Below, piece by piece: positions 34,050 through 39,504 of a DNA stretch of 64,000 bases. This stretch comes from an uncultured Sphingomonadaceae bacterium (GTDB taxonomy: Bacteria; Pseudomonadota; Alphaproteobacteria; Sphingomonadales; Sphingomonadaceae). Numbering within the stretch: the stretch's first letter is position 1; each line of letters starts with the position of its first letter. Under the pieces are notes generated by a model. It made no database searches. It was not told where the DNA came from and saw only the letters and a list, made by a program, of their open reading frames with translations. Position numbers and translations under genes: made by a program. Where the stretch lies: the NCBI GenBank assembly GCA_947493955.1, contig CANLSQ010000002.1:372001-436000 (forward strand). Direction: 5' to 3'.

Positions 34050-34315
34050 ATAATTGGTCCCTGTTCAAAAACACGGCACTCGACAGCGCCAGTTCATGTT
34101 TCAGCAACCGGAGTGAACGAAATTGGTTAGCGATAAGTTAACGCATGTGTAAATTTGGCCATAAGTGGCGGAAAAATGTTGAAATTCCGCAATTCCTGAA
34201 ATAAATGCGGTTTCGCAAAGGCAAAATGCCATTGCCCACACTCGGAGCTTTTTTGTTAGAGAATGTAACAACCAGCTGATTTGAAACCCGTTTAGCGTTT
34301 CAAATCAAAGCAGCG
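34050..34315. other. Divergent intergenic region between glycan operon and TopAI-YjhQ genes
   Basis: About 265 bases without a gene, AT-rich in its centre. It must hold the promoter of the leftward flavoprotein operon and that of the rightward toxin operon. The only strong structure is the inverted repeat at 34277-34307. No convincing promoter pair of -35/-10 boxes stands out by eye. Confidence 0.5.
34277..34307. repeat. Perfect 11+11 inverted repeat upstream of the toxin operon
   Basis: TGATTTGAAAC (34277-34287) and GTTTCAAATCA (34297-34307) are perfectly complementary around a nine-base centre (CCGTTTAGC). It lies nine bases before the small upstream ORF and 77 bases before the toxin start. 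No T-run follows, so it is not an intrinsic terminator; an operator or an RNA hairpin in the leader are both possible. Confidence 0.6.
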
Positions 34316-34375
34316 ATGAAACCGGTGCGCCTGGCGCATGGGCTGTTTTATCGCATGTTATGGTTTAATCTCTGA
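34316..34375 (+). CDS. Candidate 19-codon leader peptide ORF (uORF)
   Basis: ATG at 34316 opens 19 codons (MKPVRLAHGLFYRMLWFNL) that end with TGA at 34373, nine bases before the toxin ATG. The toxin itself has no strong ribosome site (only TGAG, which overlaps the uORF stop), so re-initiation or coupling is plausible. In E. coli, topAI is reported to be controlled by a leader ORF that senses stalled ribosomes; position is the only similarity claimed here. A short ORF of this size can arise by chance and its own ribosome site is weak. Confidence 0.4.
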   Translation: MKPVRLAHGLFYRMLWFNL

Positions 34376-34384
34376 GTAAATATA

Positions 34385-34642
34385 ATGAACATTTCCAAAG
34401 CCGAGCAACGCGTGCTTCACGCGCTCGCTCAAGGCGGGCATATCCGCCATAAACGTAATAAAAACAGCAAGATCGATGAAGTGATGTGTGTGACCCGGGA
34501 CGGTTACATATTGTCCGACTGCACGCTTGACGTCTTTGCGCGTCTCCGGCGCAGGCGGCTGATCATGTCCCGAAGGGGTAGCCCCTATCGCATCTCTCAT
34601 CTCGGCAGGGTGTCTGTACGCCCTCAACTCGACAACAGATAA
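34385..34642 (+). CDS. YjhX/TopAI-family toxin (topoisomerase I inhibitor family)
   Basis: An 85-residue UPF0386 protein collinear with E. coli YjhX (TopAI): the N-terminal [18 protein letters not shown], central [13 protein letters not shown] and C-terminal QLDNR all match the family as recalled. E. coli TopAI binds topoisomerase I and blocks its activity; overproduction halts growth. The winged-helix-like fold and basic surface ([13 protein letters not shown]) fit this. A GNAT gene follows nine bases later, as yjhQ does in E. coli. Preceded by an inverted repeat and a uORF. Confidence 0.85.
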
Positions 34643-34651
34643 GGAAAAACA

Positions 34652-35143
34652 ATGAACCAACCCAAGCACAATCCGATCAGGCCGGCCGTCCCTGGCGACA
34701 TCCCGGCTTTGAAGCGGGTCATCGACGCAACCGATATGTTTCCCTCTGAAATGCTCGACGATATGATCGCCGACTTTTTCAACGATAAGGAAAATGATGA
34801 AATATGGCTTACTTTTGACAGCAGTGATGATCAGAATAATGCCAAGGCCATTGCCTATTGTAGGCCGGAAGAGATGACCGACAGGACGTGGAATCTGCTC
34901 CTCATCGCGGTCGATCCTGATTTTCAGGGCGAAGGCATCGGAGCCGCCCTGATGAGCCATATCGAAGATCATCTGGCCGCCCGGGGGCAGCGTGTTCTGA
35001 TAGTGGAAACATCAGGAACGGACGCCTTGGCTCGCACCCGTGAATTTTATCGGCTATGCCAATATGATCAGGAATCACGCATTCGTGATTTCTACGCAGA
35101 TGGTGACGACAAGATCACTTTCCGGAAAGCTCTGCAGAGCTAG
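34652..35143 (+). CDS. GNAT acetyltransferase, probable YjhQ-like antitoxin
   Basis: A 163-residue GNAT protein. The acetyl-CoA-binding motif A is LIAVDPDFQGEGIGAALM (about residues 88-105, pyrophosphate loop QGEGIG), followed by EDHLAARGQRVLIVETS and the motif B-like REFYRLCQY. In E. coli the neighbour of TopAI, the acetyltransferase-like YjhQ, counteracts the toxin. Here the same order and nine-base spacing are kept. A start with AAGGAAAAACA upstream is good. Whether acetylation or binding neutralises the toxin is unknown. Confidence 0.8.
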   Translation: MNQPKHNPIRPAVPGDIPALKRVIDATDMFPSEMLDDMIADFFNDKENDEIWLTFDSSDDQNNAKAIAYCRPEEMTDRTWNLLLIAVDPDFQGEGIGAALMSHIEDHLAARGQRVLIVETSGTDALARTREFYRLCQYDQESRIRDFYADGDDKITFRKALQS

Positions 35144-35200
35144 GATTTCTTGATCAAGCGCTCGGCCTGTCTCGCGACGGGTCGGGCGTTTCGTTGTGTT

Positions 35201-36529
35201 TCAATCCACCAGATCATCCGGCAGCATCGGCTCGCTCAGCAATTTTTCCATCGCTTTCCAGCGCCACACCGGAGCATCGCCCTGTTTCTCGACCCAGGCC
35301 TTCACCATGTCCTGGCCAAGGCCATAGTTGATCACATAGCTGCGATACTGATCATTAAATGACAGGGATTGTTCAGCCCGTTCGCGGCTAACCAGTTGGT
35401 ATTTCTGGATCAGGGCCAGCGCTTCATCGCGGGTAACAGTCTTGTCGAGATAGGCCTGCGCAATGACAAACCGTGCGCCTTTCAGCTCGCTCAGTGCCTG
35501 TTGCAGCTTGAAATAGTCTGCCGCGGTGTCTGGATCCAGTCCCGCCAACGGGTAAAGCACATCGCGCTCAAACGTCAGACGCTCCTCTCCCGGAAACGCC
35601 AGATCAATGCCATAATTGGCCGAACCCTCGGCGATGAGCGATTGCGGCGAGTAGAGTGGGTAGACGGAAAATTCCTGCCAGCCAAGCTCACGCGTCAGGC
35701 GTTGTTCGAGCAACATGTTGTAGACATGGTGACCGGGATAGCCTTCGTGACAGCCCAGATCGACGGCGCGGCTGATCCGGATCGGCAGATCGGTGTTGAT
35801 CTGGATCAGGCTCTGAAAATTGCCCTGATAATAATTATAGCCACTCCAGCTTTTGCCAGTAACAAATTCCATTTTGAAATTTTCATCGGCCGGTAGCGCA
35901 ATATGCGCCGCCGTCCGGCGCTTGCATTCCGCAATCGCGACATCAAAAACTGGTTTCAGGCGGTCGGTTGGTATCGTGAAGCGTTCTTGATAGGCCTCGA
36001 CCCGTTTATGTAAGGGGCCTTCACCGGGCACCAGTGCCTCAATCGTCTCCAGTGCCGCATCATAACTGTTTAGTGGTGCGAATTTGGGGGTTACGCCGAA
36101 CAGGCCTTTAGCCTCTTTGGCAAAGGGGAAAACCTCACCCTGCATCATCGCGTGCCGGGTCAGAGCTGCTTCCAGTTGCGCCGACAGGAAGCGTTTACGC
36201 GCTTCCACCAGAGCATCGTCGCTGGTAGGCAGTGCATCAAGCCGCAGCATCAGGTCAACTATACCGTTGCCCAACTCCCGCATATCACGAGGCTTGGCTT
36301 TGGCTGCTGCTGACCAATCCGCCGGACCATAATAAGCATCGACATAACCTGCTTCCTGCTCTCCCAATTCCAATGTGAGCTGCACATAGTCGCTTGCGAT
36401 ACTGTCCAGGGCAGTGCTGCGTGCAACCTTCTCCGTCGCCACGTCGGCGGGTGAGACAGTATTTTGCGGCGCTGCGCAGCTGCACAGCAACAGCATCAAG
36501 GCAAGGCCGCTCTTGCCTCGAAATGCCAT
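35201..36529 (-). CDS. DUF885 family lipoprotein (metallopeptidase-like)
   Basis: A 442-residue protein with a lipoprotein signal; the lipobox LLCSC gives an acylated Cys near residue 18. The DUF885 motif GCHEGYPGHHVYN (about residues 263-275) contains an HExxxxH-like zinc-ligand pattern, with a downstream Glu in LIAEGSANYG. These proteins resemble gluzincin peptidases but most lack a known substrate. The start shares one base with the nhaA stop (TAATG), so the two are coupled. Confidence 0.8.
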   Translation of the reverse strand: MAFRGKSGLALMLLLCSCAAPQNTVSPADVATEKVARSTALDSIASDYVQLTLELGEQEAGYVDAYYGPADWSAAAKAKPRDMRELGNGIVDLMLRLDALPTSDDALVEARKRFLSAQLEAALTRHAMMQGEVFPFAKEAKGLFGVTPKFAPLNSYDAALETIEALVPGEGPLHKRVEAYQERFTIPTDRLKPVFDVAIAECKRRTAAHIALPADENFKMEFVTGKSWSGYNYYQGNFQSLIQINTDLPIRISRAVDLGCHEGYPGHHVYNMLLEQRLTRELGWQEFSVYPLYSPQSLIAEGSANYGIDLAFPGEERLTFERDVLYPLAGLDPDTAADYFKLQQALSELKGARFVIAQAYLDKTVTRDEALALIQKYQLVSRERAEQSLSFNDQYRSYVINYGLGQDMVKAWVEKQGDAPVWRWKAMEKLLSEPMLPDDLVD

Positions 36530-37887: not shown

Positions 37888-39504
37888 CTATTCCCTATTG
37901 CGGATCGATAGATTGTCGAAATGCTGCAATAATATAGCGGCGAGATGATCCAACCTGGCCTCTTCACGCTTGTTTCCGTCTGAGGTATCGCCTTCCAGCC
38001 AATCCGACAACCGTTCGGCAATCTCTGGGGGTACCAACCGAATGTCGGGGACTTCAATGTCCAATATGTCTCGCGGCTCCAGCTTCATAAGGCCGCTCGC
38101 AAAGCGCCGGACATGGTCGGCAATCCTGTGCTGCATCATATCGCTGTTCAGTAGGGCCGCCAAAGCGCGAATCTGTCGGACTGTCAGGCCTTTGGGATAG
38201 AGGCCATGGAAACAGGTCAGCGTCTTTACACTCGCAGCATTGTGAACGAAGCGCATTCGACCACGCCCAAAAGTACTTGCCCAAATTGGCGCAGCTTCAC
38301 GCGTTTCGGCTGCATACCAAATTTTCTTGGTTCGCGGCCCGTGCTTTAGCGGGATGCCTTCGCACTCACCGCGCCGGATGTAGTCCGCTTCAGCAGGTGT
38401 CAGATTGCCCTTTGGATTGAACAAAAAACACGCTTGCCCTGCTTCCGCCAGCTCATCGAAATCCGTACCGGTAAAACAGATATCTGCGACCTGCGCAGTC
38501 TTCCCGATACAGCGATCCATTCGTCCCGTTTCAAGCCCATGCTGCTCTGCTTCATCCCGGCTCAGCAGGAAGAAACTATTCGCCCCGGTGGCAATTCCGC
38601 GCTTGGTCGTCACCAGATCACCAAGCTTTACGCTGCCTTCTGCACGGGGTGCGACCGACCGGGAAATCAGTGCGTCCCATTTTTTGCGTGATCGCAGCAC
38701 GTCGGTCGGCAAGCGCTGGTGCACCACGTCAGGGGCATGCTCCAACTCCGTCAACGACGTCACGACTTTTCCAACCGGCACATAGTGGCTTTGTAACAGT
38801 TCAGGAACGCTACTGTCTTTCTCGATCAGCAATATCGAGGCGGTTGCCATATTGTCCGCAAATGCATGACCCGCGCAATCGATGGTCACCAACTCGCGGA
38901 GCAGCCCATTATTCAGCAGGTAGGCTTTTAGCGGTTGCCCGTAATTGGCTGACATCCATTCCGCTGGAATGATAATCGCAGCGCGACCGCCTTCGTTCAA
39001 CTGTTCGCAAATCTTGACCACGAAATAGACATAGAGATTGGATTGTCGGCTGAACTTTTGCCCCGACAATTGATCAATATGTTCAGCTATCAGAGGATCA
39101 AGATCATATTCGCGGTGGATGATGTATGGCGGATTGGCAATAATCGCATCAAATCGTTCGCCCTGGTCGCTCGCCAGGAAATCCTGGTGATATAGCGCAG
39201 CACCCTGCAACCTCTTTTGCGCCAGCTCGAGTGCCAGCGGATCAATATCATAACCGGTAAACGCACACCCGACCGATCGCCGCTGAGACGCATTGATCAG
39301 CACACCGGTACCGACCGCCGGATCGAGCACCGTGCGGGGCGAAGCAGTTTGGATCCAGTCGACCATAATGTTCGCATAGGATGCAGGCGTAAAAAACTGA
39401 CCCCGCTGTTTTCGTTGCCTCCGGCTGGTCGCTTCAATGAACTGGCCTTCCGGTGACAACTGGAGGTCCGCTTCTTGTTCAAATAAAGATGTCAGGCCAA
39501 CCAT
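37888..39504 (-). CDS. Solitary N6-adenine DNA methyltransferase (TaqI/Eco57I-like)
   Basis: A 538-residue amino-methyltransferase. SAM-binding motif I is VLDPAVGTGVLINAS (residues 59-73), motif IV is NPPY (124-127) in IIANPPYIIHREYDL, and the N-terminal RGQFFTPASYANIMVDW is typical of gamma-class enzymes such as M.TaqI and Eco57I. The C-terminal 200 residues should be the target-recognition domain. No endonuclease gene is adjacent, so it is either an orphan methylase or has its nuclease elsewhere. Recognition sequence unknown. A TetR gene lies upstream on the same strand. Confidence 0.8.
   Translation of the reverse strand: MVGLTSLFEQEADLQLSPEGQFIEATSRRQRKQRGQFFTPASYANIMVDWIQTASPRTVLDPAVGTGVLINASQRRSVGCAFTGYDIDPLALELAQKRLQGAALYHQDFLASDQGERFDAIIANPPYIIHREYDLDPLIAEHIDQLSGQKFSRQSNLYVYFVVKICEQLNEGGRAAIIIPAEWMSANYGQPLKAYLLNNGLLRELVTIDCAGHAFADNMATASILLIEKDSSVPELLQSHYVPVGKVVTSLTELEHAPDVVHQRLPTDVLRSRKKWDALISRSVAPRAEGSVKLGDLVTTKRGIATGANSFFLLSRDEAEQHGLETGRMDRCIGKTAQVADICFTGTDFDELAEAGQACFLFNPKGNLTPAEADYIRRGECEGIPLKHGPRTKKIWYAAETREAAPIWASTFGRGRMRFVHNAASVKTLTCFHGLYPKGLTVRQIRALAALLNSDMMQHRIADHVRRFASGLMKLEPRDILDIEVPDIRLVPPEIAERLSDWLEGDTSDGNKREEARLDHLAAILLQHFDNLSIRNRE

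Follow-up and report, generated by a model that had tools for sequence, protein, structure and literature searches.

A likely ToiL-related leader open reading frame upstream of topAI in an alphaproteobacterium

The question raised by the locus investigated in this study is which element of its leader would govern expression of topAI, a toxin gene encountered here in an alphaproteobacterium. The locus is contained in the window, a stretch of 64,000 nucleotides from an uncultured Sphingomonadaceae bacterium, and its features reside on the forward strand unless stated otherwise. At 34385–34642 it encodes an 85-residue protein that a sequence-only reading had taken for a YjhX-like toxin, an assignment confirmed by PF09857 (138.6 bits, spanning residues 1–85 of 85), with 47% identity to TopAI of E. 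coli. The same reading had correctly placed a GNAT acetyltransferase gene behind it (34652–35143; PF00583, E 5e-10), which occupies the place of yjhQ and is followed by a terminator-like stem of 16 pairs (35156–35191) as the probable end of the operon. The next gene (35201–36529) is located on the opposite strand, and yjhP, as third operon gene, is thus absent at the locus. With a YjhX family toxin gene in first and a GNAT gene in second position, the arrangement resembles the TopAI–YjhQ pair of E. coli (PMC4666372), whereas the similarity of the GNAT protein to YjhQ is weak (26% identity over 86 residues, E 3e-5). Topoisomerase I was reported as the target of TopAI (Yamaguchi and Inouye, 2015; PMC4666372) and is the presumed target also here, where the genome contains one match to the topoisomerase I family; the concluding remarks of a different study (PMC12121999) name TopAI a DNA gyrase inhibitor. 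Among 31 same-genus relatives, not counting the window's own genome, PF09857 is present in 13, and the same oxidoreductase gene adjoins topAI in all 14 genus relatives whose loci were compared. Further downstream in the window, a gene resembling Eco57I-type N6 DNA methylases (37888–39504, reverse strand; PF07669, PF02384), possibly a restriction-modification element, adjoins a gene for an NhaA antiporter.

The region preceding topAI offers few conventional signals. Inspection by eye revealed a weak GAG as its only ribosome site, in line with the initial impression that a strong site is lacking, and a promoter scan found no sigma-70-like promoter. The sequence-only reading had assigned the role of leader to a 19-codon ORF with ATG start (34316–34375), whose stop is separated by nine bases from the topAI ATG at 34385, and it had proposed coupling of the two genes across this gap. 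Both the ORF and its spacing exist, but neither is a property of the genus, as reflected in a comparison of 15 distinct leaders comprising the window, 13 same-genus relatives and L031, which was counted as same genus owing to its near-identical protein. In these leaders, the ATG (at -69) is found in three and the TGA (at -12) in the window alone, where the ORF is complete. Its start position reads ACG, ATA or AAG in most relatives, the stop region CTGAG of the window is CCGAG in most of them, and the frame is free of stops from -75 to topAI in 12 of 14 relatives. A clear Shine-Dalgarno sequence in front of the ORF was not found. Three leaders (L006, L014 and L015) contain an ATG one codon further up at -72, which in L014 is closed in frame by a TAA at -6, suggesting that a similar ORF has arisen once more via other changes. 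The window-specific changes that create the 19-codon ORF fall at paired positions of the leader structure described below, namely a U-A pair of P4 found in the window only and a G-U pair of P1, with the ATG being made by a paired change within an arm of P4. We judge it to be a chance ORF and have rejected it as sensor, since it is unconserved among the 14 genus relatives. The coupling argument is lost for the same reason, and we consider it scarcely credible that this ORF would act as a sensor coupled to topAI.

A more plausible leader ORF is found about 60 bases further upstream. This uORF at 34253–34279 starts with TTG, 132 nucleotides before topAI, and encodes in eight codons (TTG TTA GAG AAT GTA ACA ACC AGC TGA) the peptide MLENVTTS. 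Its Shine-Dalgarno sequence CGGAG is located five bases upstream of the start (CTCGGAG-N5-TTG, 34241–34279). In E. coli K-12 (NC_000913.3), toiL (ATG CTG GAG AAT GTA ATC ATC CGA TAA) encodes MLENVIIR and starts 139 nucleotides upstream of topAI. Within the first seven residues, positions 1–5 are identical and positions 6–7 are TT compared to II, whereas the start codons (TTG and ATG) and the last residues (Ser and Arg) differ. All 15 genus leaders share the TTG, the length of eight codons and the TGA; 14 conform to MLE[NI][VA][TI][TI][SNR] and one (L013) reads MSEIASNR, with the final Arg seen elsewhere mostly missing in the genus. The resemblance of the uORF to ToiL is in our view close to certain, and we regard it on grounds of sequence comparison as a probable homologue of ToiL and as the likely leader ORF of the locus. 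This comparison supports the proposal that a leader ORF precedes an alphaproteobacterial topAI and that the family as a whole would be under such control, although the wrong ORF had been named and the leader ORF is recognisably ToiL rather than independent of the E. coli system. The case illustrates how readily the wrong uORF is chosen when only one genome is considered and TTG is not taken into account as a start codon.

The properties of the E. coli system provide the framework for interpreting this region. A recent study (Baniulyte and Wade, 2025; PMC12121999) describes toiL as translated and as required for induction by ribosome-targeting antibiotics, with this one uORF sensing many of these compounds, and it places Rho-dependent termination within untranslated topAI. 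The first seven residues of ToiL are reported there as conserved, a statement made for bacteria having the topAI-yjhQP operon, and the structure comparison was limited to TopAI proteins that are at least 50% identical to the E. coli protein, a threshold above the value found for its counterpart in the window. With the E. coli leader, the window shares an eight-codon uORF that is preceded by a ribosome site and found at similar distance from topAI, a peptide beginning with MLENV and a predicted pairing of the topAI ribosome site with the uORF region, whereas the inner hairpins differ and yjhP does not adjoin. In its arrangement, the leader can also be likened to antibiotic-sensing leader ORFs of the ermCL and ermBL kind (named in PMC12121999), where a ribosome stalled on a short ORF frees a hidden downstream ribosome site, although the downstream gene here encodes a growth inhibitor instead of a resistance protein. 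Among the titles and opening parts of abstracts surveyed, in a literature collection covering a minority of subscription papers, none described toiL in alphaproteobacteria or ahead of a topAI that lacks yjhQ. A term search of the main text of a paper on tetracycline in S. meliloti (PMC12218461) retrieved neither topAI, toiL nor topoisomerase.

The distribution of such uORFs was addressed in 153 loci whose topAI is complete at its start, and these provided 141 distinct leaders after removal of 12 whose last 150 leader bases were the same as those of another locus, mostly as a consequence of one genome being fetched twice. Left out before counting were two topAI matches without N-terminus (L124, L125) and three partial or broken genes (L156–L158). 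A sample of the class of genome G653 contained PF09857 in 2 of 369 genomes, both among the loci already counted. An MxE-type pattern, defined after the leaders had been inspected (start-x-[E/G]-[I/L/N]-[V/A], stop at 5–12 codons, 80–200 nucleotides upstream of topAI), was detected in 105 of 141 leaders, compared to 9 of 6654 equally sized control windows, which were taken half-overlapping from the same loci and included the reverse strands of the leaders. Its variation is illustrated by the peptides MSEIAGNR in Sphingopyxis, MLEIVTTR in Serratia, MLEIAVIW in Acinetobacter and MSE[IL]VTR in Parvularculaceae. Among the remaining 36 leaders, a scan identified in 34 cases a short ORF preceded by a motif that resembles a ribosome site, with one chosen by hand where there were several candidates, and in two (L135, L142) a short ORF was assigned by eye. 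A tail of the [EQ]xR type is found in 23 of the 36, compared to 13 of the 6654 control windows. A bare ribosome site followed by an ORF of 5–12 codons is present in 120 of 141 leaders but also in 723 of the 6654 control windows, and the 13 leaders without an [EQ]xR-type tail are thus weaker cases, although some of them still look ToiL-like, such as MSSEIVLG in L116, MLETVGTR in L132, the SENV-containing peptides of L122 and L123 and MLENRVK in L099. Since toiL-like leaders precede most of the compared topAI genes, control of topAI by such uORFs looks widespread, as judged from their sequences.

Several leaders deviate from the predominant form. In one group (L016–L025, L114, L135–L146, L151 and L152), the uORF upstream of topAI is of another style, ending mostly in SETR, ESR or QTR and lacking the MxE start. 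In L116 and L132 the leaders are unusually long, with the uORFs starting 223 and 241 nucleotides upstream of topAI, and the uORFs MLNWSSQTR of L135 and MLSLSQTR of L142 are not preceded by a clear ribosome site. Across the 141 chosen uORFs, the start codon is ATG in 122 and TTG in 19, and a final Arg is found in 86, encoded by CGC (58), CGG (14), CGA (12), AGA (1) and CGT (1).

The uniformity of the third codon, which is GAG in 101 of the 141 uORFs and the synonymous GAA in only three, raises the possibility that the conserved stretch is an RNA pairing motif instead of a translated ORF, all the more as many leaders show pairing between this stretch and the topAI site. Against this, the first in-frame stop follows at codons 5–10 in all 105 core matches, compared to 14 and 21 in the other two frames and to 18 of 194 chance core matches in control windows. 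Moreover, in 106 MxE-type uORFs codons 2 and 5 are most variable at their third position, as is typical of coding sequence, and toiL of E. coli is translated according to the cited study. We thus regard a role exclusively in pairing as very unlikely. The near invariance of GAG and the behavior of codons 3 and 4, which do not vary in a coding-like manner, indicate that there is also a constraint at the level of the RNA.

The leader has a predicted branched structure. The fold of the window leader has an energy of -50.9 kcal/mol (z -3.27), a value equaled by 1 of 200 shuffles. In this structure, the 5' strand of a helix termed P1 (ACTCGGAG, 34240–34247), which contains the CGGAG Shine-Dalgarno sequence of the uORF, pairs with a 3' strand (CTCTGAGT, 34370–34377) that overlaps the weak GAG in front of topAI as well as the stop of the 19-codon ORF. 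A further helix is predicted between AACCA in the 3' half of the uORF (34270–34274) and TGGTT at 34361–34365. Between these strands reside the hairpin P3 (34277–34307), whose 5' arm starts with the stop codon of the uORF, and the stem-loop P4 (34313–34354) with outer arms at 34313–34320 and 34347–34354. In the 15 genus leaders, P1 is 97.1% paired, with changes on one side only, the AACCA helix 94.7%, P3 99.3%, with two pairs showing changes on both sides, and the outer helix of P4 86.7%, again with two such pairs. The genus structure obtained with RNAalifold comprises 43 pairs with 95.2% of cells paired, compared to 93.4% in shuffles and at most 49.8% in slid versions. Pairs changed on both sides amount to 7, compared to 3.1 in shuffles, of which 2 of 500 reach 7, and the covariation score of 0.135 (0.106 in shuffles) is reached by none of 500, whereas further pair types show no excess (22 compared to 21.7). 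As a structure derived from the same alignment of related sequences can exceed shuffles, we take these values as support and not as proof.

P3 coincides with the perfect inverted repeat of 11+11 bases (34277–34287 and 34297–34307, with 9 nucleotides between the arms) that had been described in the sequence-only reading, and it is retained upon alignment of the relatives, whereas the 19-codon uORF is not. Alternatively, the repeat could be a DNA operator at which a repressor exerts most of the control over topAI, an arrangement known from many toxin-antitoxin operons. Its conservation in the genus would equally agree with this role, and the paired changes preserve a palindrome in the DNA as well as a hairpin in the RNA. 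However, the repeat is located inside a conserved leader, following the stop of the uORF, and a genome search tolerating up to three mismatches located it only once. It was thus rejected as operator of a regulon, though it might serve self-control, and we consider repression at this site unlikely. The branched structure, together with terminator-like matches at 34325–34339 and 34329–34343, would also fit an RNA that binds a metabolite or protein, or an attenuator formed by P4, where the short ORF merely assists. In a search of Rfam, the leader did not show a match at gathering score, with one sub-threshold match on the other strand being at chance level. The run of T following P4 is short and broken, and the inner hairpins appear by eye to be limited to the genus, whereas the uORF is common beyond. 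These features render a binding RNA or attenuator quite improbable.

In contrast to the inner hairpins, the pairing between the uORF region and the ribosome site of topAI is a predicted feature of many leaders. Over the 141 leaders, the mean number of expected pairs between both regions is 8.35 compared to 1.45 in shuffles, and this number exceeds the values of 95% of 60 shuffles for 101 leaders and for 25 of 36 representatives of clusters defined greedily at 65% leader identity, some of which are mixed. This test is partly hand-chosen, because the uORFs of the 36 leaders outside the MxE-type were assigned by scan or eye. For the window, 7.58 pairs are predicted compared to 0.97 in shuffles, of which 3% are as high. 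The total pairing of the topAI site is less distinctive, with 0.70 compared to 0.59 in shuffles over the 141 leaders, 32 of which are beyond 95% of their shuffles, and it is ordinary in the window (0.61 compared to 0.55, with 42% of shuffles as high). The center of the pairing relative to the uORF start is at -7 in the window and thus on the Shine-Dalgarno sequence of the uORF, and at +9 in E. coli. When 30 nucleotides were blocked in the calculation, the probability that the topAI site is unpaired, averaged over the 141 leaders, increased from 0.29 in the free state to 0.51 for a block at the uORF start and 0.42 at its stop, compared to 0.31 for a block elsewhere, with increases of at least 0.2 in 72, 48 and 5 leaders, respectively. 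In the window, a start block raises the probability from 0.32 to 0.74 and a block elsewhere raises it to 0.48, whereas it stays at 0.31 upon a stop block. Contrary to expectation, in E. coli the start block reduces the value from 0.34 to 0.29, whereas the stop block raises it to 0.48.

Collectively, we find it quite probable that the region constitutes an alphaproteobacterial toiL-topAI operon working by a toiL-like leader mechanism. The conservation of the uORF, its frame signature, its likeness to ToiL, the structure and the pairing of the site are founded on comparison and prediction, whereas translation of the uORF, silencing of topAI and induction by stalled ribosomes are what we infer from E. 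coli. In such a mechanism, ribosomes would clear the uORF quickly if there is no stress and P1, with P3 and P4 lying between its strands, would form and hide the weak ribosome site of topAI, which would leave the gene silent. Ribosomes that stall at the start or the early codons of the uORF would prevent formation of P1, thus opening the site and permitting synthesis of the putative topoisomerase I inhibitor. Compared to E. coli, the lock would have shifted onto the uORF's own ribosome site.

A second feature concerns the partner gene of topAI. An iterated profile applied to ORFs within 900 nucleotides of topAI, in the 132 loci with at least 700 nucleotides of downstream sequence, identified a GNAT-like ORF in 43 (40 on the same strand and 3 on the other strand only), whereas in 89 such an ORF was not found within this distance and the uORF is kept. 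This absence is limited by profile and distance, as a divergent GNAT gene might have escaped the profile or a copy might reside elsewhere in the genome; anywhere in the fetched stretches, GNAT-like ORFs were found in 46 of 141 loci. In two of the 89 loci, Pfam assigns the next gene to an ABC transporter (L055) and to UbiD (L038), and in L046, which is outside the 132 due to its short flank, to the beta-lactamase family. Within the genus, the GNAT gene is present in 11 of 14 relatives, whereas the other three (L006, L008 and L010) carry topAI at the same chromosomal site and keep the uORF, with no detectable GNAT gene. By eye, a hairpin resembling a terminator is seen shortly 3' of topAI in two of them (L006 and L008). 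These observations suggest that it is the leader, more than a GNAT antitoxin, that accompanies topAI.

Extending this view, the conserved unit might consist of uORF and topAI rather than of toxin and antitoxin. In this case, TopAI of Alpha- and Gammaproteobacteria would act as a brake on topoisomerase I that is silenced by its leader and induced by stalled ribosomes, the GNAT protein would be optional, and both the sensor peptide (MxE..., ..SETR, ..ESR) and the position of the lock would have been adjusted differently from lineage to lineage. We advance this combined proposal tentatively, as it falls somewhat short of being probable in all its parts. While toiL is known from E. coli, what appears to be new, as judged from sequence, is an alphaproteobacterial variant with wide range. 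By tracing the toiL uORF into alphaproteobacteria, this analysis supplies naturally occurring versions of both the sensing peptide and the lock, and our findings point to a widely kept circuit that would link translation stress to the control of DNA supercoiling.
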